DNA of 64,000 nt from positions 1,178,001 through 1,242,000 of the forward strand of contig NC_014216.1 of NCBI RefSeq assembly GCF_000092205.1. The letters run 5' to 3'. A program made the translations under genes and the position numbers. The stretch is from Desulfurivibrio alkaliphilus AHT 2. GTDB taxonomy: Bacteria; Desulfobacterota; Desulfobulbia; Desulfobulbales; Desulfurivibrionaceae. Positions 15,404 through 36,370 of this stretch are shown one piece after another (the first letter of the stretch is position 1; each line of letters opens with the position of its first letter). The notes beneath the pieces were generated by a model that was given only the letters and a program-made list of their open reading frames with translations, was not told where the DNA came from and did not search any database.

Positions 15404-15458
15404 GGTGTTCTTTTGCTGCTCAGCCGGGCGAGGAAGAGCTGGTACAGTCTGGCCTCTC

Positions 15459-18400
15459 TTACCCGGCCTGCTGGTATTTCTTGAAATTCTCGGCCTGTTC
15501 GAAGATTTCCCGGTACACCTCGTCGCGGTCCACCGGGGGGTAGCCGTGCTTGGCCAGGATCAGGATCAGCTCCACCTTTAGTTCGGCCTTGATGTCTTCC
15601 CGTTGGTTCCAGTCGGTGTATTTGACCTTTTCGCCCACCACCTCCTTTACCGCCTTGGCCAGGGTGAGCAGTTTGTCCTCGGGGTAGATGAAGTCGTATT
15701 TAATGGTCAGGTCTTTTAAGATGTCGTAGAAGGCCTTTTCTTCCAGGTCGATGCCTAAGTCGGCGAAGGAATCGCGCTCCTTTTTCAGGGCCTGGATCAG
15801 GTCGATGATTTCGGTGGAAAAATCCTCCAGCACGTTGCTGCGCAGCACTTCATCTTCCTTGCGCTGGTTGTAAACATCCACCAGGGCCTTGAACTTCTTG
15901 GCGAAATCGACCCCCCGGGCCTTGTTGACCTTCTTGAAGTCTTCAATCGCCCGGGCCAGCAGTTGTTGCAGGAGCTTGATCTTGGTGTTGGGGAGCTTGA
16001 TCTTTTCGATCCGGGCCAGGTAGTCGTCGGCGAAGATATCGATTTCGCCGGCCTTATCTTCCCCCAGCCGGAAAATTTCCTCCACCCCCTCGCTTTGCAG
16101 GGCCTCGCCGATCAGCTCCCGCACCCGGGCGTTCATCCGGGCGGTATCCGGGGCATCGCCCTTGGTCAGCTTGAAAACGATGGAGCGCACCGCCAGGTAG
16201 AAGTGAATCCGGTCGCGCTCCTCCCGGCTCAGCTCTTCCGCGCCGCTGCAGATGTCGTAGGCAGCCTTGAGCCGCTTGACCAGGTGCATGAAGCGCTTTT
16301 CGATCTTGTCGGTAATCTGCACATACTCCGCCGCCTGGTTGAGGCAGTTGAGCTGCGCCACCGGGCTGCCCCGGAAATAGGGGGTGGTGTCGAAGCGGTG
16401 GAAGATCCGGCCCAGCAGGTCGAGATGGTCCCGGACCACCACCAGCGACTGGCCGATCTCCTCGATGTTCTGGCGATCAGCCTGGTTGTAGTGGGCCAGG
16501 GCCAGGTTCATTTGCTTCTTGATCCCGATATAGTCCACCACCAGCCCCTTCTCCTTGCCCGCGTAGCGGCGGTTGACCCGCGAGATGGTCTGGATCAGGC
16601 TGTGGCGCTGGATCGGCTTGTCGATATAGATGGTGTCCAGAAAGGGCACATCGAAGCCGGTGAGCCACATATCGACCACGATGGCGATCTTGAAGTTGGA
16701 CTCCGCCTTCTTGAACTGGCGGTCCAACTCCTTGCGGTACTCCGGGGTGCCCAGCATATCGTAGAGTTCCTTGGGGTCGTCGGCGTTCCGGGTCATGATC
16801 AGCTTGACCCGCTCCATGGGCTTGATCTCTTGCCGCTGGGCCGCGCCAAGCTCCTCCCCTTCCCCGCCTGGCCCTTCCCCGCCGGCTCGCGCCACGTTCC
16901 ATTCCGGCCGCAGGGTAATCAGTTCCCGCCACAGGGCGTAGGCGATCTCGCGCTTGCTGCACACAAACATCGCCTTGCCCATTACGCTGGCGCCCTCCTC
17001 CAGCCGCCGCTCGTAGTGGTGGACAAAATCCACCGCCAGGGCCCGAATCCGGTCCGGGTCGCCCAGGATGGCGTGCATCCGGGCGCTGGCCTTCTTGCTC
17101 TCCTCGATCTGGTAGTCGCTGGCCCCCTCCTCGGCGCACTGGGCGTAATAGGCCTCGATCTCTTCGAGCTTGCCGTTGTCCAGAATCACCTTGGCCGCCC
17201 GCCCCTCGTAGACGATGCGCACGGTGATCTCGTCCTTCACCGACTCGGTCATGGTGTAGGCATCCACCACCGGGCCGAAGACATCCAGGGTGGCGTCGAT
17301 GGGGGTGCCGGTGAAGCCGACATAGGTGGCGTTGGGCAGCGAATCGTGCAGGTATTTGGCAAAGCCGAAGGTGCGCTTGACCCCGTTTTCGGTCAGCCGC
17401 ACCTTTTGGTCCAGGTTGACCTGGCTGCGGTGGGCCTCGTCCGAGATGCAGATGATATTGGCCCGGTCGCTGAGCAGCCGGGTATCCTCGGTGAACTTCT
17501 GCACCGTAGTCAAAAAAACCCCGCCGCTGTTGCGGCCCTTGAGCAGTTCCCGCAAGCGGGCCCGGCTCTCGACGCTGACCACCGTCTGGTCGCCGATATA
17601 GCCCTTGGCGTTGGTGAACTGGTGGGCGAGCTGGGCATCGAGATCGGTGCGGTCGGTGATCAGCACGATGGTCGGGCTTTCAAACTCCAGGCTCTTCATC
17701 AGCAGCCGGGTGAGAAAGAGCATGGTGAAGCTCTTGCCGCAGCCGGTGGCGCCGAAGTAGGTGCCGCCCTTGCCATCGCCCCCGGTGCCGTCCGGCAGCT
17801 TACGGTGGGCCCAAATATTGCGGTAAAGCTTGGTGGCCGCGTAGAACTGGGGATAGCGGCAGACCACCTTCTCCTCGCGCTTGGAGACATCGGGGAAGTA
17901 GATGAAGTGGCGGATCACCTGGCGCAGCCGGTCCTGGTCGAAGAGCCCGGCGATCATGGTCTTAAGGGCGTTGATCCCGTCCTGGTCGATGGTTTCCTCG
18001 CCGCTGACCTTGCGCCAGGTATAGAAAAACTCGTAGGAAGCGAACAGCGAGCCCATCCGGCTGTTGACCCCGTCGCTGATCACGCACAGGGCGTTGTACT
18101 TCAGCAGCTCCGGAATCGCCCGGACATAGCGGGTGGTCAGTTGGACATAGGCATCGTGAATGGTGGCCTCTTCCCGGATGGCGCTCTTGAACTCGAAGAC
18201 CACCAGGGGCAGGCCGTTGATGTAGAGCACGGCATCGGGAATCCGCTTTTCCCGGCCCACCACCTCCAACTGGCTGACCAGCCGGTAGATATTGCCGTCG
18301 GCCCGGTAGGCGGGCGACTCTTCGGCGGTAAGCGTTTCCACCTCGCCGGGGCGGGGCCGGCGCTGGGCGGGCAGCCCGGCGTAATCGAGCAGTTGGATGT

Positions 18401-18707
18401 AAAGATCCTTGCGGCTGCGATCCTCGCGCTTGAGCAGAAAACCGTCGGCCACCAGCCGGTGGATGGTCCGGTTGGACTCATAAAGATCAAGGGCCGGCAG
18501 CCGCTCCAGCCGACGGCAGATGGAATCGATCTCGCCGGCGGTGATCCCCTCGCCGCCGTAACGGCGGGCCAGAAACTCGCGCAGATCATCCCGCAGCAGC
18601 ACCTCGTCGGGCCGCCTGGCAAGCTCCTCGCCCCTAAAATGCGGGTAGCCCCGCTCTTCCAGCAGGGCGATGATCGCCTGTTCCAGTTTAGCCTCGGTGA
18701 ACTTCAC
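15459..18707 (-). CDS. hsdR: Type I restriction endonuclease subunit R
   Basis: A 1082-residue HsdR. The N-terminal nuclease domain (about 130-220) has PDAVLYINGLPLVVFEFKS, the PD-(D/E)xK motif (D, then E-x-K). The motor has Walker A GATGCGKSFTM (about 320), DEAH in ISDEAHRSQ, SF2 motif III-like GFTGTPID, and QTISRVNR as motif VI. A helical C-terminal region binds the methyltransferase. It cleaves unmodified DNA after ATP-driven translocation, together with HsdM and HsdS. Start is GTG at 18705-18707 with GGAGG upstream. It is separated from hsdS by about 6.4 kb of ATPase, toxin-antitoxin and insertion-sequence DNA. Confidence 0.95.
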   Translation of the reverse strand: MKFTEAKLEQAIIALLEERGYPHFRGEELARRPDEVLLRDDLREFLARRYGGEGITAGEIDSICRRLERLPALDLYESNRTIHRLVADGFLLKREDRSRKDLYIQLLDYAGLPAQRRPRPGEVETLTAEESPAYRADGNIYRLVSQLEVVGREKRIPDAVLYINGLPLVVFEFKSAIREEATIHDAYVQLTTRYVRAIPELLKYNALCVISDGVNSRMGSLFASYEFFYTWRKVSGEETIDQDGINALKTMIAGLFDQDRLRQVIRHFIYFPDVSKREEKVVCRYPQFYAATKLYRNIWAHRKLPDGTGGDGKGGTYFGATGCGKSFTMLFLTRLLMKSLEFESPTIVLITDRTDLDAQLAHQFTNAKGYIGDQTVVSVESRARLRELLKGRNSGGVFLTTVQKFTEDTRLLSDRANIICISDEAHRSQVNLDQKVRLTENGVKRTFGFAKYLHDSLPNATYVGFTGTPIDATLDVFGPVVDAYTMTESVKDEITVRIVYEGRAAKVILDNGKLEEIEAYYAQCAEEGASDYQIEESKKASARMHAILGDPDRIRALAVDFVHHYERRLEEGASVMGKAMFVCSKREIAYALWRELITLRPEWNVARAGGEGPGGEGEELGAAQRQEIKPMERVKLIMTRNADDPKELYDMLGTPEYRKELDRQFKKAESNFKIAIVVDMWLTGFDVPFLDTIYIDKPIQRHSLIQTISRVNRRYAGKEKGLVVDYIGIKKQMNLALAHYNQADRQNIEEIGQSLVVVRDHLDLLGRIFHRFDTTPYFRGSPVAQLNCLNQAAEYVQITDKIEKRFMHLVKRLKAAYDICSGAEELSREERDRIHFYLAVRSIVFKLTKGDAPDTARMNARVRELIGEALQSEGVEEIFRLGEDKAGEIDIFADDYLARIEKIKLPNTKIKLLQQLLARAIEDFKKVNKARGVDFAKKFKALVDVYNQRKEDEVLRSNVLEDFSTEIIDLIQALKKERDSFADLGIDLEEKAFYDILKDLTIKYDFIYPEDKLLTLAKAVKEVVGEKVKYTDWNQREDIKAELKVELILILAKHGYPPVDRDEVYREIFEQAENFKKYQQAG

Positions 18708-18940: not shown

Positions 18941-18947
18941 GTCTCAC

Positions 18948-19202: not shown

Positions 19203-19212
19203 GAGCAAGACC

Positions 19213-19584
19213 ATGCACGAACAGATTATCATCACCGCCGGGGGAGAACGCCTGGTTGTAATTCCCGAGGCCGATTACCTTGCCATGCTCGACGCCATTG
19301 AAGATCGCGAGGATATCGCGGCCATTGAAAAATTCCACCGCCGACTTGCGGCAGGTGAAGAGGAACTGCTGCCCGCCGAAATGGCCAATCGCATCCTTGA
19401 CGGCGAAAACAAAATCCGGGTCTGGCGGGAGTATCGAGGGATGTCGGCACGCGAGCTGGCCTCCACGGCGCAGATAAGCACTTCCTATCTGTCGCAGGTC
19501 GAAACCGGCTCCCGCGAAGGCGGTATCGATACGCTCAAACGCATAGCCGCCGCCCTTCGCGTATCAATCGATGATCTCGTGTGA
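19213..19584 (+). CDS. XRE-family antitoxin
   Basis: A 123-residue protein. The N-terminal part (EQIIITAGGERLVVIPEADY) resembles the toxin-binding arm of RelB/Phd-type antitoxins. Residues about 68-120 form a Cro/C1 helix-turn-helix (YRGMSARELASTAQISTSYL then SQVETGSREGGIDTLKRIAA). It neutralises the RelE-like toxin and should autoregulate via the CAACTT/AAGTTG palindrome. Ribosome site TAGGAGCAAGACC. The stop is immediately followed by the MITE at 19588. Confidence 0.88.
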   Translation: MHEQIIITAGGERLVVIPEADYLAMLDAIEDREDIAAIEKFHRRLAAGEEELLPAEMANRILDGENKIRVWREYRGMSARELASTAQISTSYLSQVETGSREGGIDTLKRIAAALRVSIDDLV

Positions 19585-20948: not shown

Positions 20949-21005
20949 TGTTAATGATCACCCTAATGGAGCCACCCATGATCAGCTAATGGAGCCACCC
21001 TCAAG
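20949..21005. repeat. IS21 left terminal repeats
   Basis: Two tandem copies of TGATCA(C/G)(C/-)...TAATGGAGCCACC are read from the left tip. The right end (about 23220-23341) carries several inverted copies (TGGCTCCATTAGCTGATCA and variants), so the ends are asymmetric in repeat number. Confidence 0.8.
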
Positions 21006-21032
21006 TGGCCATTTTGGGGCTCCGGACGGTTT

Positions 21033-21818: not shown

Positions 21819-21833
21819 TGAGGTTCCTCCTTA

Positions 21834-23128
21834 TCAGTGAAAAAGTTGTTGGCGCTGGAAGCGGCCCTGGCCCCGGTAGGCCATGCCGGCCGCCACCGGT
21901 TCCGTTTCCGGGGGCTGTTGGTCAAGCCCCTTGCCGAGGATGGTTTTGACCGTGATGTATTGGGGGCTGTCGTAGATCAGCGCTCGGTGACAGGCGGCCT
22001 CCAGCCGCTCCGGGCCGTATTTGCCGGCCAACCGGAGCACCCCTTGGGCCGCCCGGAGATGATCAACCACCCGGTGACTCAACAGCCGGTGGATCAGGCG
22101 GTGGCAGTGGGGGCCGATCTCACCGGCCTGCTTGAGACACCACTGGGGATCGCGCATCAGGTAGGCGACGGCGTCCGGCGGCAGATGATCGATACAGGTG
22201 GCCTTCTGGCCGGGACGGCCACAGCGGGGATGGATCGCCACCTGTTGATGCTGGTGGTAGATCTTGACGGTGTTTTCGGTCGCCTTGACCCACAGCTTCT
22301 TGTGCACCAGCTTGAAGGGAGCGGAGTAGTAAGCTTTGTCGAACTGGAGATGGCAGTTGCCGTGCAGCTTGTGCTCGGCCCAGACCGCCAACTCCGGGGC
22401 CACGGCGGGCAAAGGTTTAAGGAAGGCCTTCTCCGCCTCGGCGAACATGACCAACGGCTTTTGCTTGGTGGTGCCGTGGCTCCGGTTGCCGGCCGTTGCC
22501 AGCACCCACTCCTTAAGCTGGCGATTGGCATCGACCAGACTGCGGAACGTACGCAAGGGCAGGAAGTTGTTTTTGACGTATTTGACCCCGGACTCCACCC
22601 GCCCCTTCATCTGGGGAGGGTCATGACGAACACCCAGGTGGAAAACGGCTTGCCGGTCTGGGGATCAAGCAGCTTGGGGCCGGAACCGAAATCCACCTGG
22701 GCCGCTTCGCCGGGATCAAAGTCCAGCATTACCGTGGCTTGGGGGTTATCCCCCTTGAGGTCCTGGAGAAAACGTCTGACCGAGGAGTAACTACCGGTAA
22801 AGCCGTGTTCGCGCACCAGGGTCTGGTGCATGGCGGTGCCGTTGATCCCGGCCGCCTGCCAGGTCTTGAGCTGCTCCTGGTACGGCAGCAGCAGCGGCAC
22901 CGCCGATTCACCCGGAGCCGGCAGCTTGATTACTTTGGCCAGCTCGGCATCATCCGGCAACTCCCGGGCGGGATCGAGCCAGCCCTGCTGCTGGGCCAAG
23001 GCCCGCAACTGCGCGGCCTTGCGACGGCCCATCAGCTTGGCCTTGGCGATCTGACGGTCGGACTGGCCCAACCGCATTTGGGTAAGAATTTGACGGTATT
23101 GAAACATCTCGAACCTCCTATTGGCCAT
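21834..23128 (-). pseudogene. istA: IS21 transposase IstA with internal deletion and frameshift
   Basis: Two frames overlap by 4 bases. The upstream one (22607-23128) has the N-terminal helix-turn-helix (ILTQMRLGQSDRQIAKAKLM) and the first DDE-domain strand with D in EAAQVDFGSGP, ending WVFVMTLPR. The downstream one (21834-22610) resumes at MKGRVESGVKYVKNNFLPLR, which has the catalytic E, and continues to the C-terminus. Intact IstA proteins have roughly 80-100 residues between these blocks, including the second catalytic Asp. That stretch is missing here and the join is out of frame, so the transposase is dead. Confidence 0.9.
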
Positions 23129-23622
23129 CGGCTATCCCTCCTGAAAATGGATTTTTTCAGGAAGATATAGCCGATCCGCAGAAAGTCCGGGACCCGTTTA
23201 TGAACTCAAGGGAAGGGGTGGCGCCATTAACTGATCCGCAAGTGGCTCCATTAGCTGATCACGCCATGGCTCCATTAAGCTGATCCTTAACTGGCTCCAT
23301 TAGCTGATCACGAAGTGGCTCCATATGGGTGATCATTAACACCGACTACCTGTTGCAGCAGGGTGGACTTGCCGCAGCGGCGCCGGCCGTAAATTACCAC
23401 CAGGGCCGGCTCCGCCCCGCCGATGGCGCTCTTCAGCCGGGCAATCTCCCGTTGTCTGTTTAAGAATTCAAGTCGCATCGCTCACTCTGTCGCCTCTCGG
23501 TAATTATGCATGTTGAACATAATGTTTGACATACATAAACAACAGGGATTAGTCAAGAATAGATATTTTTTGTCTTGTTTCAGCCCTCTTTGGGGCCTAC
23601 AAGGCGTTGCCTGATAACCCGC

Positions 23623-24876
23623 TTACAGCTCCCAGAGTTTGCGCATGGGGACGGCGAGGAACTTTTTGTCTCCCAGGGGGAGTATATCTCTGCCGTTGTA
23701 AAGCAGCAGCCCGGCTTGAAAGTTTCGACCGCATTTTTCAGCCAGATGAGCAAGGCCCTGCCCGTCTTTATTATTCAAGGTCTCGGCGGCTTTAACCTCG
23801 ATACCCCAGGTTTTGGCACCCCGGGTGACGACCATGTCCACTTCAACCTGGTCTTTGTCGCGGTAATGCCAAAAGCGTAGGTCCGGGTCCGTCCAGGCGG
23901 CCTGGGCGATGATCTGTTGGATCACGAACGATTCCAGCAGATGCCCCATTCGCTCCCTTTGCGCCAGCCAATCTTCCGCCTTTAAACCGGCCAGGGTCGC
24001 TGCCAGGCCGCTGTCGAGCAGGTGTACCTTGGGGGTTTTAATCAATCGTTTGGCATTATTACGATGCCAGGCCGGCAGGCGGCGCAGCAGGAAAAGTCGT
24101 TCCAGGATCGTTAAATAATGGTTCACGGTATCGCGGTGCAGGGCGAGTTCCTTGGCCAGGTTGCTGGCGTTGAGTAATTCGGCGCTGCGGAGGGCCAATA
24201 ACTCCAGGAGACGTGTCACCTCCTCGGCGTTTTTCACTCTGGCTACGTCCTGGATGTCTCGTTCGATAATCGATTTCAGGTATTGCCGCCGCCACTGCCT
24301 GGCTCGGCCGGGCGAGCGCCGCAGTGGTTCAGGATACCCGCCCGCCACCAGCCGCTGGACCAGTGCAGGCCCTGTTGCTCCGCTTTTCGGTGGGGCCTGG
24401 ATCTCCGGCTCAATCGCCCCAGAAAGGAAAGTTTGCAGAAAACGACCGGGCCGGCGCTCTTTTTCCGACTCCGTCAATGGTTGCAAATTGACAATTTCCA
24501 GGCGTCCGGCCAGGGATTCACTTACCTTTGGCAGCAGCAGGAGGTTGGCGGAGCCGGTCAGGAGAAAGCGCCCGGGGCGCCGATCACGATCCACGGCCTG
24601 TTTGATAACAGGCAATAGCTCGGGAGCTCGCTGTACCTCGTCAATGGTGATCTCTTCCGGCAAGCCGGCAATGAAACCGGCCGGATCATGGCGTGCAACC
24701 CGGTAATAGTTAGGTTCGTCCAAGCTGATAAAGGCGCGCTTGGGAAAGGTCTTTTCCGCCAGCGAGGTTTTTCCGCACTGCCGTGGCCCCAGCAGGCAGA
24801 CTACCGGTGTGTCGGCCAATGCTTCCTTGATTACCGGTGCCAGGTTGCGCGGGAACCAGTGAGATGCTTCGTCCAT
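23623..24876 (-). CDS. AAA_14/DUF4143 ATPase
   Basis: A 417-residue protein. Walker A is LLGPRQCGKTSLAEKTFP (about 29-44), the Walker B-like motif is ITIDEVQRAPELLPV (about 75-90), sensor-1 is RFLLTGSANLLLL, and a C-terminal DUF4143 nuclease-like domain (about 200-417) has DLRFWHYRDKDQVEVDMVV and WGIEVKAAET (D-x-D then E-x-K). Such ATPases are widespread, often near mobile or toxin-antitoxin loci, and their role is unknown. It lies between the split DUF234 ATPase and hsdS on the same strand. The sequence looks intact. Confidence 0.9.
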   Translation of the reverse strand: MDEASHWFPRNLAPVIKEALADTPVVCLLGPRQCGKTSLAEKTFPKRAFISLDEPNYYRVARHDPAGFIAGLPEEITIDEVQRAPELLPVIKQAVDRDRRPGRFLLTGSANLLLLPKVSESLAGRLEIVNLQPLTESEKERRPGRFLQTFLSGAIEPEIQAPPKSGATGPALVQRLVAGGYPEPLRRSPGRARQWRRQYLKSIIERDIQDVARVKNAEEVTRLLELLALRSAELLNASNLAKELALHRDTVNHYLTILERLFLLRRLPAWHRNNAKRLIKTPKVHLLDSGLAATLAGLKAEDWLAQRERMGHLLESFVIQQIIAQAAWTDPDLRFWHYRDKDQVEVDMVVTRGAKTWGIEVKAAETLNNKDGQGLAHLAEKCGRNFQAGLLLYNGRDILPLGDKKFLAVPMRKLWEL

Positions 24877-24918: not shown

Positions 24919-25143
24919 CTAATTGTACATTAGTATATCGTCTGGCTGTTGTTTGTCAACCACGGCGACGAACAGCACGCACTGGCGGCGTTGCAGCAAA
25001 AGCAGCTTGGCGTGCCAGCCGCTCAGCGGGGATTCGCCCGCGTCGATGGCGGAAGGGGGCACCCCCCGCCGGCTTTTCAGCCGCCCGTCCGCATCACACG
25101 GCAGCTTGACCAGTAGTTTTTTGGTGCAGTGCAAGCGTATCAT
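24919..25143 (-). CDS. Truncated DUF6933-like protein
   Basis: A 74-residue frame starting MIRLHCTKKLLVKLPCDADG, then ESPLSGWHAKLLLLQRRQCV and LFV. This is the N-terminal signature of DUF6933 proteins, which normally run to about 150-170 residues. Here the family similarity stops near residue 60 and the frame ends in VVDKQQPDDILMYN, so the C-terminal half is gone. The ATG overlaps the last codons of hsdS. It is probably a remnant rather than a functional gene. Confidence 0.55.
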   Translation of the reverse strand: MIRLHCTKKLLVKLPCDADGRLKSRRGVPPSAIDAGESPLSGWHAKLLLLQRRQCVLFVAVVDKQQPDDILMYN

Positions 25144-26516
25144 ATGGCATCCGCTACGAGTTTTTCCGCATCGGGGATGCGGAGTTGGCCGGAGATTAGT
25201 TTGGGGAGCAGGGTGTCGCGTATTTTTGCTAATGTTTCTTGCGAATTAAGATTTTTAATCCATTTGTCAAAAATGTTATCCACTTGTTTTTCTAACAATT
25301 CGCCAAGCACCACAGGCGGGATGACCACCTTTGTCTGCTGGATAATCCCTTTGCTTATGTTTTGTTGAGCTGAACCTCTGGCTTGATTAGCTAAAGTGGC
25401 GACAATACGCTCAAGAGTGAGGTAGTTAAAAAAACGATATGGTTCCTTTGGGATAAGACCGCATACAGCTTGGTTGGTGGTCAACGGTTCGCCGACAAAC
25501 GCGACTTGCCCTGCAGTTGCACCATACATAGCAATAACCGTGGCACCTGATGGAAGCCACTTGGCCGAGCTGTTTTTCAGCCCTAGATTAGTAATCCTGT
25601 TAACAGTGTTTGTGATTATATTTTGCCTTACCTCACCCGAGGTAAGCCAAGGTACTGTTCCATCATCCCAATATTCTGTTTTATCTTTTCTTGGGGTCCC
25701 TCCATTCTGGATTTTTGTGCATAGCTGTGAAATCTGGGACACCTCCCACCCCTCCGGCACCCAGCCCATTTCTTCGGTGGAGACGAAGCGGCTGGGGAAC
25801 TGTTTTTGGATCGCTTCGGGGAGGGGTTTGCGCTGGTCGCCCAGGGCTTTGCGGGCCTTGGCGCGGGCTTGCAGGGGTTCGGGGATGGGGTTGCCGGCGG
25901 CCAGGGCGTTGTCGATGACCGGGTCGAAATCGACAAACCAGCTCTTGAACAGCGCCCGCGCCATCGCCTCCAGCGTGGCGTTCATCCGGCGGTTGAGCTC
26001 GATTTTGTCGTCGAGGGAGCCGAGGATGTGGGCGATGGCTTTTTGCTCTTCGATTGGCGGAATTGGTAGTTCAAAGTTGGGGATGTCAGCACACCTAAGA
26101 CTGTCAAAGACCGCTCCAACATTCAGGTATTTATCTACTTGAGCCCACCATTCAGGACCGTTAGCAAGCCAACGCAGGAATGGCGGATAGACTCGACTTG
26201 AGTCCGACCGAAGCAATACCAGATTTTGGCCCAAAGCAAACCTGACCCCGGCTGGAACATAGGCTGTTTCACCAGGATTGCATCGCCTAGAGAGAACCAC
26301 ATCATCTTCTTGCGGATTGGCTTTTTTAGTCCATTCCTCTAAATCGGCCGCAGAAATCAAACGAGGATTTGCGTTGAAGTCTATGCGCCCCTCCTTCATC
26401 TGAGGAATCGCAATGTAAGGATATCCGTCCCCAGCATCAGGTGGCGTTTTATGAACACAATCAAGCAAAGAAACACCAGCTTCTTTTAGGGTCAGTCGAA
26501 CCCACTCACCCCTCAT
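25140..26516 (-). CDS. hsdS: Type I restriction-modification specificity subunit
   Basis: A 458-residue HsdS with two target-recognition domains (about 1-150 and 245-400). They are separated by the conserved helical spacer: IPPIEEQKAIAHILGSLDDK, IELNRRMNATLEAMARAL and FKSWFVDFDPV. A second spacer lies at the C-terminus (LNSQETLAKIRDTLLPKLIS). The two domains read the two halves of the asymmetric bipartite DNA target. The start overlaps hsdM's stop by 11 bases. It appears complete, so the methyltransferase is probably active. Confidence 0.93.
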   Translation of the reverse strand: MRGEWVRLTLKEAGVSLLDCVHKTPPDAGDGYPYIAIPQMKEGRIDFNANPRLISAADLEEWTKKANPQEDDVVLSRRCNPGETAYVPAGVRFALGQNLVLLRSDSSRVYPPFLRWLANGPEWWAQVDKYLNVGAVFDSLRCADIPNFELPIPPIEEQKAIAHILGSLDDKIELNRRMNATLEAMARALFKSWFVDFDPVIDNALAAGNPIPEPLQARAKARKALGDQRKPLPEAIQKQFPSRFVSTEEMGWVPEGWEVSQISQLCTKIQNGGTPRKDKTEYWDDGTVPWLTSGEVRQNIITNTVNRITNLGLKNSSAKWLPSGATVIAMYGATAGQVAFVGEPLTTNQAVCGLIPKEPYRFFNYLTLERIVATLANQARGSAQQNISKGIIQQTKVVIPPVVLGELLEKQVDNIFDKWIKNLNSQETLAKIRDTLLPKLISGQLRIPDAEKLVADAI

Positions 26517-28080
26517 AACCCAACGCCTCCAAATTCCTGCGTATCACCGCATCAAGCTTTTCCGCCTCGGCCATCTGGCGGTAGAGGGTCTGGCTTAGTT
26601 CGGTCATTTTTTGCTCGAAGGGGATGCCGTCGTCTTCGATTTCGGCGGCGCCGACGTAGCGGCCCGGGGTCAGGACGTAGTCGTTGGCCTTGATCTCCGC
26701 CAGGGTGGCGGCTTTGCAGAAGCCGGGTTGGTCCTGGTAGGCGCCGTCCTTGGCTTCGCCGCGCCAGGCGTGGTAGGTGCGGGCGATCTCGGCGATGTCG
26801 TCGCAGGTCAGTTCCTTGTGGGTGCGGTCGATCATGGTGCCCATGTTGCGGGCGTCGATGAATAGGGTCTCACCCCGGCGGTCGCGGTGGCTGCTGTCGC
26901 TGTGGCCTTCGATCCGCTGGGCCTTCTTGTTCCTGGTGATGAACCAGAGGCAGACCGGGATCTGGGTGGTGTAGAAGAGCTGGCCGGGCATGGCGATCAT
27001 GCAGTCGATCAGGTCGTTTTCGATCAGCTTGCGGCGGATCAGGCCCTCGCCGGAGGTGTTGGTGGACATGGAGCCGTTGGCCAGGACAAAACCGGCAACA
27101 CCATTTTCCGAGAGCTTGGAGACCATGTGCAGAATCCAGGCGTAGTTGGCGTTGCCGGTGGGGGGCACTTCGTAGCCGGCCCAGCGCGGGTCGTCGGTCA
27201 GCTCGTTGGCGGCACGCCACTCCTTGAGGTTGAAGGGCGGATTGGCCATGATGAAGTCGGCCTTGAGGTCCGGGTGCTGGTCCTTGAAGAAGGTGTCGGC
27301 GGGGGCCTCGCCCAGGTTGGCGGCAATGCCCCGGATCGCCAGGTTCATTTTGGAGAGCTTGTAGGTGGTGGAGGTGTACTCCTGGCCGTAGATGGAGATA
27401 TCCTTCTTGCTGCCCCGGTGGCTTTCGACGAATTTGACCGATTGCACGAACATCCCGCCGGAGCCGCAGCAGGGGTCGTAGATCTTGCCCCGGAAAGGCT
27501 CGATCATCTCGGCGATCAGCTTGACCACGCACTTGGGGGTATAGAACTCGCCGCCGCCCTTGCCCTCGGTGGCGGCGAATTTGCCGAGGAAGTATTCGTA
27601 AACCCGGCCCACCACATCCTGCTCGTGGTCGGCGACGGTGTCGATGTTGTTGATGGAGTCGATCAGGGCCGCCAGCTTGCTGACATCCAGCCCCAGGCGG
27701 GAGAAGTAGTTGTCCGGCAGGGCGCCGCGCAGGGCCGGGTTGTTCTTCTCCACCGTGTGCAGGGCGGTGTCGATCCGCACCGCGATGTCATCCTGCTTGG
27801 CCGCTTTCCGGATGGTGGACCAGCGCGCCTCCTCGGGCAGGTAGAAGACGTTCTTCATGGTGTAGAACTCCACCATATCGACATAGTCCCCCTGGCCCTC
27901 GGCGATCAGTTCCCGCTTGCGCTGCTCGAACTTGTCGCTGACGAACTTGAGGAAGATGAGGCTGAGCACCACATGTTTGTACTCGGAGGACTCCACCGTC
28001 CCCCGCAGCCGGTCGGCGGTTTCCCAGAGGGTTTGTTCGAAGCTTTTGGTGGGTTTTTTGAGGGGTTGTTTTTTGGGCAT
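26506..28080 (-). CDS. hsdM: Type I restriction-modification N6-adenine methyltransferase subunit
   Basis: A 524-residue HsdM from MPKKQPLKKPTKSFEQTLWE. It has the N-terminal HsdM helical domain, SAM-binding motif I in YDPCCGSGGMFVQS (about 210), and catalytic motif IV NPPF in DFIMANPPFNLKEW (about 285). It methylates adenine in the target defined by HsdS. A longer start at 28122 is possible (14 more residues), and neither has a strong Shine-Dalgarno. Order on this strand is Toprim gene, hsdM, hsdS, then the ATPases and finally hsdR. Confidence 0.94.
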   Translation of the reverse strand: MPKKQPLKKPTKSFEQTLWETADRLRGTVESSEYKHVVLSLIFLKFVSDKFEQRKRELIAEGQGDYVDMVEFYTMKNVFYLPEEARWSTIRKAAKQDDIAVRIDTALHTVEKNNPALRGALPDNYFSRLGLDVSKLAALIDSINNIDTVADHEQDVVGRVYEYFLGKFAATEGKGGGEFYTPKCVVKLIAEMIEPFRGKIYDPCCGSGGMFVQSVKFVESHRGSKKDISIYGQEYTSTTYKLSKMNLAIRGIAANLGEAPADTFFKDQHPDLKADFIMANPPFNLKEWRAANELTDDPRWAGYEVPPTGNANYAWILHMVSKLSENGVAGFVLANGSMSTNTSGEGLIRRKLIENDLIDCMIAMPGQLFYTTQIPVCLWFITRNKKAQRIEGHSDSSHRDRRGETLFIDARNMGTMIDRTHKELTCDDIAEIARTYHAWRGEAKDGAYQDQPGFCKAATLAEIKANDYVLTPGRYVGAAEIEDDGIPFEQKMTELSQTLYRQMAEAEKLDAVIRRNLEALGYEG

Positions 28081-28182: not shown

Positions 28183-29727
28183 TTAGTACTCTTTCGTTCT
28201 AGGTATACAGGCGAAAGTTGATCCATCGAACATGTATTCTTGGCTCTGGTAATCGTAATTAACGGTCCGAGCTTGAAGAGCTGCCCTCAGTTCTCGCCAG
28301 ATCGGCCGTTCCGCTTGAGTATCTGCGCGGTCAGGATGGGATATCGCATACTGGGCAAGAGCACGGCCCCATTCAGCGCCTTTCAAGGATTGCTTCCGCT
28401 CTGACACTGCTTTGTATAGACTCTCGAGGTCTCGGCTGCGAGCGATGCCTGTCCAGTCTGTTTTCCGTACCGCCGCTCCGCAGAAGCCGAGCTCCTCGTC
28501 AAGCTGTGCTGCAATTTCTACGAGTTCTTCCAATGCAAAGTTCGCAAACTCGAAGTCTGGCTGGTGTGCGGCGATATATCCGACGACTCGTTCCTCCTCA
28601 ACGTGACGACGTATGGCCTTAACGTTTGCGGGAACATCGGTGTCGAACGTAATGATGCTGAAGCGCCTCAGAGCACAGTCTTCTTGCAGTCCATCACTGA
28701 GCTTCAGTGCTATGTTATCGCGTTCGCTCGCAAGGTTACCCCTTAGATTCACAAGCTCGACATTCGCCTTAGCTGGCTCCGGCATGATACTTAGGATCGC
28801 TTGATACTCAGTATCTCCTTCCACATACCAGCGAACAGCGCTGCCTGTTGCAAGGCCGAAATGAAGTGTGAGCCGCGGGCGGGAATGCGGTATATCGTCA
28901 AGTGGACGTTCCGATCCGTATACCAAGGTTCGGTCACCATGCGACCACTGACCGAATCCGCGATCCTCCTCAGGCCATACCACTTTGTGGACGCTCTCGA
29001 AGACTCGCCTAATGACCTCCGCCATGTGCCGGAACCATAATCCCGCAGCAACCGCCCCCCTTAGACGTTTTCGCCTGTCCCACCGAGCTACGCGGAGCAA
29101 TAGATAGAGGCTCCCGTTCTCATCGAGCATTGCGGCATCGAGACGCACCTTCTCATGAGCCTTTTGCCACTCCTGGGGATCAAGGCTTTCAACGAGAACC
29201 GTTGCGTTTTTTTGGTAATGGCGTAAGAGCCTGTTGTGCTCTTCTATATCAACCCCTCCGGAGCGGACTGTCCACCCTGTGATGTCAGGCCAATACAGAG
29301 GTTCCAAGCAAGTCGCCAAGTCGACGACTAGATTTGCCTCCGCAGCCGTATGGCTAATGTCTTCGAGCGAAGGCATCTGTTCGGCCAGTACGCGATTAAC
29401 AAGCTCCGGCAGCCGCTCGCAGTTCAGCGAAGCAGAGGGAGCTATGGGTAAGCTGAGCCGCTTCAGTACTCTGTGCACCGTATAGAGCCGGAATGGGTGG
29501 AACAGAATGCGACGGTCAGCAACGACTTCTTCCCCCGGCAACCAACCGCGGCGATTGAACTCACCTGGATCGCCTTCAACAACACCCGAAAGCCGAACAC
29601 CAAGGTCCCTTGCAAACTTTATGAACTGCACCTCCGTCAACGGGGCAACCTGGCGCAAACGCTGTAGTTCGGGATATCGCGTTTCTTTGAAGCTCTGAAT
29701 CTCGGAGCTGGCAGCAGTTGGTGGCAT
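28183..29727 (-). CDS. Toprim-domain protein of the type I RM locus, function unknown
   Basis: A 514-residue protein I do not recognise by name. Residues about 299-430 carry a Toprim-like pattern: VRWYVEGDTEYQAIL (Glu 303, Glu 307) and, about 55 residues on, IITFDTDVPA (Asp 362, Asp 364). This matches the E...D-x-D metal centre of OLD-family nucleases. The N-terminal 290 residues show no Walker A, so it is not a full OLD/GajA ATPase-nuclease. It sits 102 bases upstream of hsdM on the same strand, the place where RM accessory or anti-phage genes are often found. A nuclease role is inference. Confidence 0.6.
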   Translation of the reverse strand: MPPTAASSEIQSFKETRYPELQRLRQVAPLTEVQFIKFARDLGVRLSGVVEGDPGEFNRRGWLPGEEVVADRRILFHPFRLYTVHRVLKRLSLPIAPSASLNCERLPELVNRVLAEQMPSLEDISHTAAEANLVVDLATCLEPLYWPDITGWTVRSGGVDIEEHNRLLRHYQKNATVLVESLDPQEWQKAHEKVRLDAAMLDENGSLYLLLRVARWDRRKRLRGAVAAGLWFRHMAEVIRRVFESVHKVVWPEEDRGFGQWSHGDRTLVYGSERPLDDIPHSRPRLTLHFGLATGSAVRWYVEGDTEYQAILSIMPEPAKANVELVNLRGNLASERDNIALKLSDGLQEDCALRRFSIITFDTDVPANVKAIRRHVEEERVVGYIAAHQPDFEFANFALEELVEIAAQLDEELGFCGAAVRKTDWTGIARSRDLESLYKAVSERKQSLKGAEWGRALAQYAISHPDRADTQAERPIWRELRAALQARTVNYDYQSQEYMFDGSTFACIPRTKEY

Positions 29728-29855: not shown

Positions 29856-30464
29856 TTAATGGTCAATTCTAAAAGGATTGATCTGGCTTGATTTACTAAC
29901 TGCTATTTGCCAGATTTCTTCTCTAAGCATGGATGGAGACAAAATTGCAGGATAAACCTTTCCTTCTTCAAAATTTTGGAGCACTCTTTCACTCGGTGAA
30001 ATCCTTGTTGCTATATAACTTTCTCTATATTTCAACACGTCAATGTTGTACTTTGAAATATATGGATCTATTCTGTGTGGATAACGGTCTAGCAGCACAT
30101 CAAGCCTAATATCTGATGCTTTTTTGATCTCTAACTCGATGTCCCATATATCGCGGCTGTCTTTATAAATTTCATATATTTCATTATACTTATTAATCAA
30201 ATTTTCGTTCAATGAATTATAGTCTTTATCGGTTGCTAATAATATTTCAGTTTTCATTTCTCTTAACAATACCACAAAATCAACATAAGTTACCCCAGAA
30301 GTTACAGCAGCACGGGCCGAACGTTCGGCTCTATGTAAATCAATGATCGTGTCTGTGGTATCTTCGTCATTTGGAGCCCGTGATCCCCCATAGCTACAAC
30401 CAGACATATAAAGTAATAGCGCTATCCCAACTACACCAAACAGCAATATAGCCCATTTATTCAT
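29856..30464 (-). CDS. Putative lipoprotein, unknown function
   Basis: A 202-residue protein. An N-terminal membrane segment ends in a lipobox LYMSGC (Cys 23), so it should be lipid-modified and membrane-anchored. The body is rich in Asp/Glu/Ile and helical, with no motif I recognise. Strongly AT-rich codon use unlike the core genes marks it as part of the imported segment that continues to 37 kb. Shine-Dalgarno GAGGTTGATGAG precedes ATG. Confidence 0.65.
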   Translation of the reverse strand: MNKWAILLFGVVGIALLLYMSGCSYGGSRAPNDEDTTDTIIDLHRAERSARAAVTSGVTYVDFVVLLREMKTEILLATDKDYNSLNENLINKYNEIYEIYKDSRDIWDIELEIKKASDIRLDVLLDRYPHRIDPYISKYNIDVLKYRESYIATRISPSERVLQNFEEGKVYPAILSPSMLREEIWQIAVSKSSQINPFRIDH

Positions 30465-30593: not shown

Positions 30594-31304
30594 CTACCTG
30601 AGGCAGGCAAGCAATCTCGATGAGTTGCTTTCTGCCCAAATTCGTAAAACTTCGAGTTGATCTTCTGTAACTAATCCAGAGGCCAACTGCAATGTCATCT
30701 GCAGCCGGAATTTTTCAAATTTCTTGACACTTGAGGGACTCAGTTCAAGCAGAACGAGCTGCCCTATCAACTCAGTTGGCTTGGCACTGCCATGCAGAAC
30801 GGCAATCACTTCCTGGTACCGCTTGGAAGCAGCATTCGGCCAGGCTGCCTTCAGTTCCTGTATGTACTCACCAACGGTTTCGACGGGGATGTTTGGAAAG
30901 GAGGGAAAAGAGGGTCTGTCAGCAAAAAATTTGTTATCGTAGCTGCGCCTCACAAGATCAGCAGGTGCTTTGTTGTCACAAGGCCCAACGATGTAAATAT
31001 CGTTTAGCGAGACGATCTGGATGTCGACGTAATAGCCAAGAAGTTTGCCATTGTTGTCCATGACGTTACCGTTGGACGCCTGGAGATGGGGCAAAGTGCC
31101 AAATTCTGCAACATACTGATTTTTTTTATCGTCAAATAACAGCCTTTGCGTCTTGGCGGGCTGAATAGCGGGATGTGCCGCTATAACTTGTTCGGCTTTC
31201 GTTTTCTCTTTAGGAACAGGAGCAAGTTTCAGGGTAATCTCAGCATCTTCGGTTTCTGCTGCAGGTATCCTTCCTTTTGATACTTTATTACGTTTGAGCG
31301 CCAT
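30594..31304 (-). CDS. Hypothetical protein of the mobile segment
   Basis: A 236-residue protein with a basic N-terminus (MALKRNKVSKGRIPAAETED), a central DNNGKLLGYYVDIQIVSLND segment and a Leu-rich C-terminus. No recognised domain. It lies 60 bases downstream of the interrupted helicase gene on the same strand and so may once have been co-transcribed with it. Phage or conjugative-element origin is plausible but unproven. Confidence 0.55.
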   Translation of the reverse strand: MALKRNKVSKGRIPAAETEDAEITLKLAPVPKEKTKAEQVIAAHPAIQPAKTQRLLFDDKKNQYVAEFGTLPHLQASNGNVMDNNGKLLGYYVDIQIVSLNDIYIVGPCDNKAPADLVRRSYDNKFFADRPSFPSFPNIPVETVGEYIQELKAAWPNAASKRYQEVIAVLHGSAKPTELIGQLVLLELSPSSVKKFEKFRLQMTLQLASGLVTEDQLEVLRIWAESNSSRLLACLR

Positions 31305-32185
31305 CGTGCTTTATCCCATTTTCTTATTGTGTTGCTATAGTTTGCTGCGCAGTCATTCAGGAGGTTAACGTAATCTCCCCGTAAGCGCCTTTCTTAACGT
31401 TTCCCTCGTTGGGAATACAGTTTGCAATAGGTCCTCCTTGTTTAACAGCCTCTCCCTGATACTCTCCTGAATTGTGCCAATTGCACAGGATGGCCAAACG
31501 GTACACTTTCGGTCCTGCCCACTGCGCTTGATCCTGCCTACGCACTGTTCAAAATCAGAAGAAGTAATCGGCAGCTCCAGGAACATCATATACCTGCAGA
31601 ACTGTAGATTAAGCCCAGCACCTCCCGACTTGGGCTGGGTGATAGCTACCTTGATCGCAGGATCATCCCGGAACTGCTCGACTCGTTTATGGTTATCAGT
31701 CGCACCGCCGTAAATCTGGATACAACCGATCTTCAGCTTATCAAGATGCGCCTTCACAGCATCGTTGGAATCCCGGTAGTTGACGTAGACCAACAGCTTC
31801 TCGTCGTGCAGCCGCTCTACCCCTGTTTCCTCAATCACTTGATTGAGCATATCCAACCCGGCAGGAACTATCTTGGGGTCAGGGACAGATAAGATCATTC
31901 GCTGCGCCCGCTGGTACAAAGCCTGTTGGGTTACAGCGTCGATCACCTGTCCAGAATCGAAAACGACCAGCAATTCTTCCACCAGCTCTTGGTAGTATCG
32001 AGCGTGTTTCCACTGCAGTTCGTATTCGAGGTTGATGTAGTTCACATCCGGGATATCCAGCACATCCTCCGCCTTCGTATCAGTGGCATAAATCATCAGG
32101 TTACTGCGAAGCAAATCGAGATTATCAAAGGTTCGAGGCTGTCCATATCGGTCCACTCTCCTCACATGGGTTATGGTAAAAGAAC

Positions 32186-33570
32186 GAGTTATTGTCAAAT
32201 CTGGTGTACGGAGTCCTCAGGCGGCCATCCGCATAGGTTGATCTGACACCTTGATTCCGTTTTTGAATTGTATGCCGGTGACGACCTCAGCCAGCCGGCG
32301 AAATCCCTTGATCTTTTTCCATCTTTTTTCAGCGCTTTGCAGCAGCTTAAAGACCATGGTCAGGGTGGTGTCCCTGGAACCGCAGTTCCGTGATCTCTTG
32401 CTGCGCAGGCGCACAGTGGCAAAGGCCGACTCGATGGGGTTGGTGGTCCTGATATGCACCCAGTGTTCGGCTGGAAAATCGTAAAAAGCCAGCAACTCGT
32501 CCCGGTCCTTGGCCAGGCACTCCATGGCCTTGGGGTATTTGTCTTCGAAACGGGCCAGCATACGATCAAAAGCCTGGCTGGCATCTTCCTTGGTCTCAGC
32601 CATCCAGATATCATGCAAATCAGCCTTGGCCTTGAGCTGAAGCTTTTTGGGCATCTTGTTCAGCACGTTGGCCGTTTTGTGAACCCAGCAGCGTTGGTGG
32701 CGGGTCTTCGGATAGACCCTGCCCAAGGCGTTCCAGAACCCCAAGGAACCATCGCCAACCGCCAACTCGGGGCCTGTGGTCAGGCCCCGAGCCCGCAGCC
32801 CGGCGAGAAGTTCATACCAGCTGTCGCTTGACTCCCGGTAGCCATCCTCCACCGCTATCAGTTCCTTGTGCCCCTGGTCGGTAACTCCAATGATCACCAG
32901 CAGGCAAAGCTTGTCATCCATGCGGACGTTGCTGTAGATGCCATCCACCCACCAGTAAACGTAGCGTTTTCCGTTCAGGTCACGTTGCCGCCATTTGGTG
33001 TGCTCGGCCAGCCATTTGGCTTTCAAGCGGGAGATGGTGTTGGCCGACAACCCCTTGGCCTGTTCCCCGAGGAGTGCGGCCAGGGCCTCCTGGTAATCGC
33101 CGGTGGAAATTCCTCGCAGGTAAAGCCAGGGCAGCAACTCATCGACACTGCGCGCCCGCTTCAGATAAGGCGGCAACAAACTGCTGTTGAACTTGAGGCC
33201 TTGGCCGCTACGATCTCGCACCTTGGGAACTTTGACCTCGACATCGCCGATTCCGGTCTGGATCGTGCGACCGGGAAGATAGCCGTTTCGGACCACTGTC
33301 CTGCGGCCATCTTCCAAGCGGCTGGAGTATTGGGCCATGAAGGCCTGTAATTCAGCTTCTACGGCCTGGGCAATCAGCATCCTGGCACCATCGCGCAAAA
33401 GGTCGGTAAGCGGGTCGGCGACATTGTTTCCTTGTTGTGAAAGAGCGGTTGGGGTAGACTTGGTCATGGCGTATCCTCCTGTGTTGGCTGTGATCGTCGT
33501 GGTGATCAATCAACCTGGATGATACGCCATTTTCCTCAGTTATCCCATACACCAGATTTGACTATAACCC
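32186..33570. mobile_element. IS256-family insertion sequence
   Basis: A 1385-bp element. Inverted ends GAGTTATTGTCAAATCTGGT (left) and GGGTTATAGTCAAATCTGGT (right, reversed) are followed by GTA on both sides. A 9-bp target duplication TAAAAGAAC lies at 32177-32185 and 33571-33579. It carries one intact transposase. The length, 8-9 bp duplication and single DDE transposase fit IS256. Confidence 0.9.
32217..33467 (-). CDS. IS256-family (mutator-type) transposase
   Basis: A 416-residue DDE transposase from MTKSTPTALSQQGNN. The conserved Transposase_mut regions are seen: RRTVVRNGYLPGR, TGIGDVEVKVPKVRDRSG, YVYWWVDGIYSNVR (first Asp), AVGDGSLGFWNAL (second Asp), RCWVHKTANVLNKMPKK, and TTNPIESAFATVRLR (catalytic Glu). 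The start at 33467 is chosen because AGGAGGATACGCC precedes it; an in-frame start at 33509 lies only 61 bases from the element end. It looks intact, so the element may be active. Confidence 0.95.
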   Translation of the reverse strand: MTKSTPTALSQQGNNVADPLTDLLRDGARMLIAQAVEAELQAFMAQYSSRLEDGRRTVVRNGYLPGRTIQTGIGDVEVKVPKVRDRSGQGLKFNSSLLPPYLKRARSVDELLPWLYLRGISTGDYQEALAALLGEQAKGLSANTISRLKAKWLAEHTKWRQRDLNGKRYVYWWVDGIYSNVRMDDKLCLLVIIGVTDQGHKELIAVEDGYRESSDSWYELLAGLRARGLTTGPELAVGDGSLGFWNALGRVYPKTRHQRCWVHKTANVLNKMPKKLQLKAKADLHDIWMAETKEDASQAFDRMLARFEDKYPKAMECLAKDRDELLAFYDFPAEHWVHIRTTNPIESAFATVRLRSKRSRNCGSRDTTLTMVFKLLQSAEKRWKKIKGFRRLAEVVTGIQFKNGIKVSDQPMRMAA

Positions 33571-34187
33571 TAAAAGAACGATGCGATGGATATATCGTCG
33601 GCGACTTCAACTTTATCAACCCATAGCATGAGGTAGGCACACTCCCGAGCGGAGTCGCGGTCATAAGAATCAACCGCTTGTCAGACAGCTCCACAAACTC
33701 CCTGATCGACTTGAAATTCTGAGTCGCCGGAGATCGCACACACGCTGCTTCGTCCACGATCAGGGTCACCCGCTTATCTCCCAACCCCGTTTTGAACCGC
33801 TCGAAATCGTTCTTCCAGACCCCAATGGAAGTCAGAATCACGTCGTTATCGAGAGAAAGTTGTTTTCGTTTTGTAGGTGTGCCCTGGTAAATTGTTATAC
33901 CGAGGTCGAAATTCTTCAACCATTGCTCCCATTGCCGGATCAGGATTGGAGGGAGCAGGATCACGATCTGATCCGTCAGGTCATCCAGCCCCCAGTGCAG
34001 GGCGATTGCAGTCGATACCGCTGTCTTGCCTGTGCCAAGGCCGTTGAAGATTCCCACCCTCTCATAGTCAACCAAGGCATCAACATCACGCTTCTGGTCT
34101 TCACGCAGTTCAAACGGAAAAGGATAAGCGTTGGTGACCTGCTCCGCAGGGTTATAATATCCCATTCTAGGTCTCGGGCTCATCAGC

Positions 34188-34703
34188 TCACCCCCCCTGC
34201 CGAAAATCAACCGGATTCACGTTGTCGGCCAGCTCGATGTAATGCTTCTTGATGTTGTCGCTGGCGATGTCGAACCAGATGTCGTGGCCGTGGATTTGGT
34301 TGATAATCGGGTCGACCTTGTTGTTCCGAAGATAATCCAGGAATTGCCGGGGCTTCATCTCCTCCGCCAGCTCTCCTAACAGCCGGTCGCCATGCGCTTG
34401 CAGGGCAGTCGCGATCGCAAGCGGCATTGACCCCAAGCTGGCCGGAAACTGGCCGGGATCGTCGCCGTAAGCCAACAGCGATTCCAATTTCTCGGCGCTG
34501 GTAAGCCACATGATATTCCAAGCGCCGGGGGCGGCGTCGAAGATCGGGTCAAGACCAATGCCGACCATTTCGCCGTCGTACAGTACAGAATATGATTCTT
34601 TAGGCTGAGAAGACCATCTTACTTTGCTTGGTCTGCAATTTGAAATTTTATCCATTTCTTGACTCGTTCGCAAAATTTGTGGGTAGATCTCTTTGTGCAC
34701 CAA
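34188..34703 (-). CDS. Hypothetical protein upstream of the split helicase
   Basis: Up to 171 residues. A likely body runs from MDKISNCRPSKVRW (34655) and contains PGAWNIMWLTSAEKLESLLA and LDYLRNNKVDPIINQIHGHD. No family is recognised. The stop lies 4 bases before the preferred helicase start, so the two are probably co-translated. The start is uncertain: 34703 would be GTG and 34655 is ATG with a weak ribosome site. Confidence 0.5.
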   Translation of the reverse strand: MVHKEIYPQILRTSQEMDKISNCRPSKVRWSSQPKESYSVLYDGEMVGIGLDPIFDAAPGAWNIMWLTSAEKLESLLAYGDDPGQFPASLGSMPLAIATALQAHGDRLLGELAEEMKPRQFLDYLRNNKVDPIINQIHGHDIWFDIASDNIKKHYIELADNVNPVDFRQGG

Positions 34704-34794: not shown

Positions 34795-36081
34795 TTATTT
34801 TTCTATTTCTTCTTGAAGCCTTGCCCAAAAAGGTTTCAATTGTTTCTTGATGGCACTTGACCCCATAGTCTCTGCACATCTCAGCCCATAACGAATGAAG
34901 TTTCGTTGCCCAAGATGAGAATATCTCTCATAAATTTTTCTTTTATAAACGTCCTGCCTCGGCTGTCCTTTCCTTATCCTTACACGGTTGTATTTAATTC
35001 TTGTCAATTTAGCCAACCTAACACCGGACTTCATTCTTTCTGAAAATCTTGCAAGTGCGGCAGATCTGATTAACTTGTGGTGCCCATCAAAAACAAAACC
35101 TAAATATTGAAGCGGCTTGTCGCACGTAAGTTGACCTTTGACAACTCTATATTCTGATGTTTTCGTTTTGTCCGTATTGATGTTTAAATTTAACTTCTTT
35201 ATCTCTTTGTTAATCCTGTCGATTATTTCATTTTTTCTGGCAAGTGGGACAATACATAATATGTCGTCGCAATACCTCAGATAACAACCGTTTATTTCCC
35301 CCATTACGCTAGATACAATTTGATCAAACTCAACCATGTAAATATTTGACAGTAATGCACTTATTGGAGATCCTTGGGGAATTCCTTTCTGGGTATTATT
35401 GACTTCAACCAGGCCATTTTTTCTGACCACTTTCCTGAAATCTCTTGGCTCACAAACTCTTTTGTTTTTCTTTTTTGGGTTGTTTTTTGATATGGCAAAA
35501 GCTTCATAGAGTGGATCTTTATAAACTTTTGAGAATTTTGTTAAAGATTTAAAGACATTATAGTGGTCGTCAGGTAATTTTTTTAAGCCAAGAACCCTTG
35601 ACCACGATTCTTTCAAAATTGAATGATTTAAATTGTCAAAAAAACCTTCAATGTCAAAAGCAATAGCTGCACAAAACTGTCTTTCGATAATTTTATTAAA
35701 TGCATCATTTGCAAAATCTATATTGCTCTTACCTAGTTTCCTAAAAGCCATAACATTTTCTTCTACACCAATATCTTTAATAAATTTCTCATACGCCTCA
35801 TTAAGCATATAAGTGTAGTAAGTATAAATATGAGAATCTACATGCGAAGCGTATGAAACTGGTCTTTTTTTCTCCTTAATTGCCAGTGACTTCCCGTCTT
35901 CCCCTTTACGAACTTTTTTACTTTTTATTTCGTAAGCAATGAAAGGATAAAATGAATGCCGTTTCACTCTCTTCGGAGAAGTGGCTATTGCTTCAGCCTG
36001 TCTAACCCCGATAGGAAGATCAAAGTGAATGTAACCACGAGATTTATACCAAGGGTGGTCTTGAGATCGCATAAACACCAT
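34795..36081 (-). CDS. drt2: DRT2-like (UG2) antiviral reverse transcriptase
   Basis: A 428-residue stand-alone reverse transcriptase. It opens HPWYKSRGYIHFDLPI (9-24). RT block 3 is AIAFDIEGFFDNLNH (Asp 143), block 4 is QKGIPQGSPISALLSNIYM (231-249), block 5 is YLRYCDDILCI with the catalytic YCDD (270-273), block 6 is NINTDKTKT and block 7 is LQYLGFVFDG. There is no maturase X or endonuclease domain, so it is not a group II intron protein. RGY.HFD, KRPVSYASHVDSHIYTYY and the YCDD active site fit the DRT2 class, which copies its own upstream noncoding RNA into a concatemeric gene upon phage infection. The upstream region here has just such a template. The class call is from memory of the family, not from a search. 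Confidence 0.8.
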   Translation of the reverse strand: MVFMRSQDHPWYKSRGYIHFDLPIGVRQAEAIATSPKRVKRHSFYPFIAYEIKSKKVRKGEDGKSLAIKEKKRPVSYASHVDSHIYTYYTYMLNEAYEKFIKDIGVEENVMAFRKLGKSNIDFANDAFNKIIERQFCAAIAFDIEGFFDNLNHSILKESWSRVLGLKKLPDDHYNVFKSLTKFSKVYKDPLYEAFAISKNNPKKKNKRVCEPRDFRKVVRKNGLVEVNNTQKGIPQGSPISALLSNIYMVEFDQIVSSVMGEINGCYLRYCDDILCIVPLARKNEIIDRINKEIKKLNLNINTDKTKTSEYRVVKGQLTCDKPLQYLGFVFDGHHKLIRSAALARFSERMKSGVRLAKLTRIKYNRVRIRKGQPRQDVYKRKIYERYSHLGQRNFIRYGLRCAETMGSSAIKKQLKPFWARLQEEIEK

Positions 36082-36084
36082 TAT

Positions 36085-36370
36085 TTATTCTGCAAAACCG
36101 GAAGGGAGTAGGACTGCGGCCATCCAAATATCCCTTCCGGCTTAGCCAAAGGTTTACTAACCCCTTCCGTACTCGGAGGTACGCGCCGCGACTGTTAAGA
36201 ATGTGTTATACTAACACTATGGAGGACAACTTTATGTTCATAGGAACACTAATCATCCTGACCATTGGCCAGATGTCATTATCTCAGCAATGTCTATACA
36301 TTAACTTTCGACTTGACATCCTGTGTCATCCCCCGCTGCCTACACAACGGGCAAAAAACTACAATAATGC
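36085..36370 (-). ncRNA. Predicted DRT2 template noncoding RNA
   Basis: The 400-base gene-free, conserved-looking region directly upstream of the reverse transcriptase on its own strand. Elements in RNA order are as follows. A 7-bp hairpin CCCGTTG-tgtagg-CAGCGGG (36351-36332) lies just before the first ACA (36324-36322). A 129-base template follows. A second ACA (36195-36193) is followed by a GTAC...GTAC hairpin near 36184-36170. Finally a perfect 10-bp stem is formed by CCGGAAGGGA and TCCCTTCCGG (36143-36100). Boundaries and promoter are not resolved; the 5' end is a guess from the hairpin position and the 3' end abuts the RT start. Confidence 0.65.
36196..36324 (+). other. 129-nt 'neo'-type template unit: endless frame and junction promoter when concatenated
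   Basis: Read as cDNA (opposite to the RT gene), the unit runs from after TGT at 36193-36195 to the TGT at 36322-36324. Joined head to tail, TTGACA (36313-36318) falls exactly 17 bases before TATACT (36207-36212). Next come GGAGGA (36221-36226), 7 bases, and ATG (36234). The frame from that ATG has no stop through the unit, and 129 is divisible by three, so each pass re-enters the same frame via TTA-AGA-ATG. The predicted 43-residue repeat is built of MFIGTLIILTIGQMSL, SQQCLYINFRLDILLR and MCYTNTMEDN. In the chromosome itself the -35 and -10 are in the wrong order, so the gene exists only after reverse transcription. Confidence 0.75.

Follow-up and report, generated by a model that had tools for sequence, protein, structure and literature searches.

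A predicted OLD-like Toprim nuclease without an ATPase, encoded upstream of hsdM in Desulfurivibrio alkaliphilus

Toprim effectors old and new

Class 2 OLD nucleases, such as Bp OLD, Xcc OLD and GajA of the Gabija system, carry an ABC ATPase in their N-terminal half and a Toprim domain followed by a helical region in their C-terminal half. The active site of Bp OLD comprises E400, E404, D455, D457, T506, E508 and K562 (PMC6755086). In the class 2 systems that we used as controls, a gene for a UvrD-like helicase (GajB) is present downstream. How the ATPase and the Toprim domain regulate one another, and whether an OLD protein can defend a cell alone, have both been named as open questions (PMC10568477). 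Separately encoded Toprim proteins are known as well. AriB, the Toprim tRNase of PARIS, is the partner of the ATPase AriA; AbiLii and the described relatives of RloB likewise pair with an ATPase, and ATPase-less Toprim proteins of the RloB kind occur in some Type I restriction-modification (R-M) operons (PMC10440598); and JetD of Wadjet, a relative of OLD, is a Toprim protein with a gene of its own (PMC10568477).

The protein described here is encoded in a 64,000-nucleotide stretch of the genome of D. alkaliphilus AHT 2—‘the window’, below—by an uninterrupted reading frame that is single-copy in the 3.1-Mb genome (Table 1). The first-pass annotation of this DNA had placed VEGDTE at residues 302–307 and FDTD at 361–364, had taken these for the acidic E…DxD center of OLD-type nucleases, and had remarked on the absence of Walker A, on the unfamiliarity of the N-terminal 290 residues, and on the position of the gene upstream of hsdM. 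All of this stands. Both motifs lie in the translation where they were said to, and direct reading of it finds no GxxxxGK[ST]; the predicted fold and the conservation of residues support an OLD-type center; fold comparison of the N-terminal part yields no convincing match; and the gene lies 5′ of hsdM, in the same orientation. A Toprim-type protein with E…DxD and without Walker A is confirmed. Searches of Pfam, PADLOC and NCBIfam find no relevant family in it, an ATPase included, and at E up to 10 none of the eight family members has an ATPase or other relevant Pfam match, that to RloB included. The absence of a fused ATPase domain follows from the Walker A and family searches, independently of any fold search. 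In the literature that we covered on ATPase-less or stand-alone Toprim proteins, mostly short of subscription papers and preprints, we found no such architecture.

Table 1. The Toprim protein, its parts, and the neighboring Type I genes
Feature	Position in window	Strand
ATPase-less OLD-like Toprim nuclease (predicted), 514 aa	28183..29727	minus
N-terminal domain, residues 1–294, mostly helical (predicted)	28846..29727	minus
Toprim core and helical tail, residues about 294–514, class 2 OLD-like (predicted)	28186..28848	minus
Putative catalytic residues, by OLD correspondence: E303, E307, D362, D364, D391, E393, K449		
hsdM, neighbor, judged to be outside the Toprim system	26506..28080	minus
hsdS, neighbor	25140..26516	minus
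hsdR, neighbor, completes the Type I system	15459..18707	minus

The two halves of the protein

The AlphaFold model of the protein (pLDDT 84.9), for which the input alignment left out the homologue from an Ideonella plasmid, contains a Toprim core, with the strand-helix alternation typical of this fold at residues about 298–388, and a helical tail. Compared with known structures by VIA-align, the model finds its best matches, over residues 294–493, in the C-terminal parts of class 2 OLD proteins: Xcc OLD and Bp OLD reach Z 10.9–11.2 over 167–169 residues, with rmsd 3.7–4.0, and Ts OLD reaches 8.8. The best five rows are all OLD proteins. Unrelated rows begin at Z 7.4, above AriB of PARIS (8ux9 chain, Z 6.8); the OLD protein of retron Eco8 stands at Z 5.6. 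Foldseek E-values for the whole model all exceed 0.001, so that the structural case rests on the second look with VIA-align; a viral RloB-like model is among the weak matches (Foldseek probability 0.77).

The residues tell a similar story. In an alignment of eight sequences, in which the seven homologues are 26–51% identical overall to the window protein, E303, G304, E307, G330, D362, D364, D391, E393, N396, F397, E401, K449 and W453 are invariant. Because all seven putative catalytic residues are among them, the acidic and lysine motif is beyond what chance would produce. Paired by order, spacing and motif rather than by superposed coordinates, the active-site residues of Bp OLD correspond in order to these seven, metal A and metal B ligands alike, and six of the seven class 2 OLD residues have identical, invariant counterparts. 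The seventh, T506, is replaced by an invariant aspartate, D391. The spacing from the first glutamate to DxD is 55–59 in the family versus 53–59 in six class 2 OLD proteins, and most members of both groups have one of two motifs around the lysine, K-G-x-(x)-[FW]-[AG] or K-K-x-x-F-A. The spacing from DxD to the following E differs, instead: it is 31 in the window protein versus 56–85 in the OLD proteins compared.

Sequence comparison is less forthcoming. Profile-profile comparison with class 2 OLD, of the whole family and of the C-terminal half alone, gives no significant alignment, and the family profile finds no match among PDB sequences up to E 10. A complete but more distant member, P0002 (E 2.5e-15 with the family profile), matches Pfam OLD-like_TOPRIM at E 6.5e-4, its 20.6 bits lying below the cut-off of 23.2. 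The probable link to OLD is drawn, then, from the predicted structure, the ordered motifs, and this one sub-threshold match of a distant relative. The lysine of P0002 is unaligned, but by eye FSKLDIARL can be set opposite FSKGTAWGEAL of the homologue at locus L006, and the lysine is probably, if not certainly, conserved there too.

If the correspondence holds, the C-terminal half would be a Toprim plus helical domain of the class 2 OLD, GajA-like kind, and would cut phosphodiester bonds by two-metal catalysis: E303, D362 and D364 would hold metal A, E307, D391 and E393 would hold metal B, and K449 would face the scissile phosphate. The lysine and the structural ranking favor DNA as the target, as for class 2 OLD, rather than RNA, as for AriB.

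The N-terminal half is harder to place. Folded alone, residues 1–294 give a confident, mostly helical model (pLDDT 86.4, pTM 0.86), unrelated to the ABC ATPase that OLD proteins carry at this position. No ATPase fold occurs in the list of its structural matches to the PDB, although the silence of such a list is no proof. The best three rows of the second look are MerR-type winged helices, matched within residues 12–137 at Z 6.7, 5.8 and 5.3, a range in which the tool warns of chance. The strongest, at residues 28–131, covers just 72 residues, and comparing the sequence with those of 19 MerR proteins gave no match; the MerR reading was not adopted. We leave the domain unassigned, and keep this reading as a hint that it might bind DNA. 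In place of the ATPase, the N-terminal residues may sense a trigger or restrain the nuclease.

Neighbors and relatives

The region of the window is a defense island. In order along the minus strand, it comprises a DRT2 reverse transcriptase, an SNF2 helicase gene split by IS256, two open reading frames, the Toprim gene, hsdM, hsdS, a gene for an AAA/DUF4143 protein (PADLOC PDC-S01), an IS21 element, a gene for a DUF234 protein, and hsdR. The reverse transcriptase gene, drt2 (34795–36081, minus strand; NCBIfam, 589 bits), and the RT-12 RNA directly upstream of it (36089–36197, minus strand; Rfam RF03016, 76.5 bits) apparently form a complete DRT2 system. The SNF2-type gene (31365–34210, minus strand) is probably inactive, since an IS256-family element at 32217–33509 seems to split it. 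Between it and the Toprim gene, the two minus-strand reading frames, 29856–30464 (202 aa, with a lipoprotein-like start and 36% GC) and 30594–31304 (236 aa), match nothing in Pfam or NCBIfam. Between hsdS and hsdR lie the DUF4143-type and DUF234-type ATPase genes and the IS21 element (19704–24876, minus strand), so that the Type I operon appears to be interrupted. The true start of hsdM is probably that in Table 1, where a homologue of hsdM begins, and about 100 bp separate it from the Toprim gene. No ATPase gene directly adjoins the Toprim gene in the window; nor, unlike class 2 OLD, does a gene for a UvrD-like helicase lie downstream, where hsdM comes next.

Relatives of the protein are few and far between. 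Six homologues in the genome collection come from a member of the Bacteroidales, Bryobacter, Alcanivorax, an Anaerolineae bacterium, an Anaerolineales bacterium and a myxococcote, and so from Bacteroidota, Acidobacteriota, Gammaproteobacteria, Chloroflexota and Myxococcota. Another lies on an Ideonella plasmid, with an integrase and a phage tail gene nearby; its 3′ end diverges, and an IS3 transposase gene overlaps there. One more comes from IMG/VR, on a contig that also bears Mu-type portal and F-like genes. Among 97 genomes of relatives, the 96 others have no homologue; 395 genomes of the phylum hold none besides that of the own genome, 347 genomes of the phylum of locus L003 hold no new one, and a search of the phage collection found none. 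P0002 is one of two more distant members in the class of locus L005; the other (L025 103–3378, G848) seems to be interrupted by a transposase-like gene. The scatter of homologues across phyla points to horizontal movement, and we read the gene as rare and horizontally moving.

The neighborhoods of the homologues were surveyed by comparing 861 flanking reading frames with one another. Genes common to different loci are limited to Type I genes (the window and locus L002) and a reverse-transcriptase domain; no partner is conserved at the loci examined, and neither JetABC-like genes, as Wadjet would have, nor an AriA-like ATPase recur. PADLOC has no match for the Toprim protein itself. It was run on selected neighbors. 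In all, defense or candidate-defense genes adjoin four of the nine loci, although nine is too small a number to establish enrichment firmly: in the window, Type I R-M, PDC-S01 and DRT2; at L002, Type I R-M together with PDC-S11; a DitA-type gene upstream of the homologue at L004; and PDC-S54 and PD-T7-5 genes downstream of that at L009. Loci L003, L005, L006 and L007, some of them on short contigs, show no clear defense gene among the neighbors scanned, which for PADLOC means those of L005 and L006, the weak matches at L005 being discounted. At L009 the homologue lies in a Mu-like prophage region (2222–19485), next to an integrase, an IS91-type transposase, PDC-S54 and PD-T7-5; the region is like a prophage defense hotspot.

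What the protein might do

The gene had been thought, from its place at the head of the hsdM-hsdS cluster, to be a defense accessory. A general role in defense is plausible, given four loci of nine; a role as accessory of hsdM-hsdS is not supported. As an accessory, the protein would work with HsdM/HsdS, for example as a back-up effector set off by a block to restriction. Surveys of BREX report TOPRIM/OLD effectors in such a back-up role next to modification systems (PMC12839542), RloB proteins set a precedent within Type I operons (PMC10440598), and the gene itself lies directly 5′ of hsdM and adjoins a Type I system at L002 too. Its relatives argue otherwise. A genome of the same genus (G002) encodes an HsdM 97% identical to that of the window at the corresponding locus, on a contig stretch that includes the chromosomal genes that flank the window's island on its right. 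DNA similarity between the two runs at 96% through hsdM and ends at 28143, which is 40 bases past the stop codon of the Toprim gene; the G002 sequence yielded no Toprim homologue, and the slot upstream of hsdM holds a gene for a 249-aa HNH nuclease (L045 10827–11576), instead. The Toprim gene is absent also from genomes with 80% and 79% identical HsdM; in the first of these (G039), what lies upstream of hsdM is phenylalanyl-tRNA synthetase genes and a MerR-family gene. What G002 and G039 carry there, and the difference in GC3 between the Toprim gene (0.55) and hsdM (0.88), show the slot to be variable and the Toprim gene to be one of its occupants. Type I genes accompany the family at two of nine loci; seven of the eight others besides the window have none among the flanking reading frames compared, and at L002 the gene sits at the opposite end of the operon, with HsdM 53% and HsdR just 31% identical to those of the window. 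The swap at hsdM leaves no case for an integral part, although the two might still benefit from their co-location, and we think the accessory role quite unlikely.

Much the same doubt attaches to a Toprim RNase or DNase of the PARIS, AbiL or RloB sort, restrained by an ABC ATPase whose gene would lie elsewhere in the genome. AriB is a Toprim effector without a fused ATPase, it and the viral RloB-like model are partial or weak structural matches, and the separately encoded effectors of those systems do have partner ATPases (PMC12409363, PMC10440598). But the family has no recurrent neighbor, ATPase or otherwise, at the loci compared; AriB ranks below OLD, and K449 and its motif match class 2 OLD; and a search of this genome for the OLD-like_TOPRIM domain found no further one. 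The architecture differs, too: Toprim is here C-terminal, behind a domain of 290 residues. Unlikely as well, if not so remote, is a function outside defense, as a DNA-processing enzyme or mobile-element nuclease that lies in a defense island because that is where mobile genes land. Several loci adjoin genes of housekeeping type (topA, rplU, sulfatases, a sirtuin), and the prophage contig and the plasmid locus fit a mobile-element nuclease. The four loci with defense or candidate-defense neighbors speak against this, as does the occupation of the slot by an HNH nuclease gene in the sister species; patchy distribution and resemblance to OLD, moreover, are typical of defense genes.

We prefer, with some confidence, to see the protein as a self-contained, mobile OLD-like nuclease, probably serving in defense against phages or plasmids, and not as a Type I subunit. 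As a single gene it would move between unrelated bacteria and through prophages, coming to rest here in the variable slot upstream of hsdM. The company that it keeps and the kinship of its product suggest that protection against phage or plasmid DNA is its likeliest function, and that it would work by cutting nucleic acid of the invader or of the host. More speculative, and rather less than an even bet, is the thought that such defense might be ATP-free and the work of one gene, a previously undescribed and possibly DNA-binding N-terminal sensor directly gating the class 2 OLD catalytic domain without ATPase, helicase or antitoxin partner.

Since the family lies outside the Pfam, NCBIfam and PADLOC models searched, annotation and defense finders based on these would miss it. 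A family with a class 2-like catalytic set, and with neither an ATPase nor a constant partner, would allow this nuclease to be studied under a different form of control.
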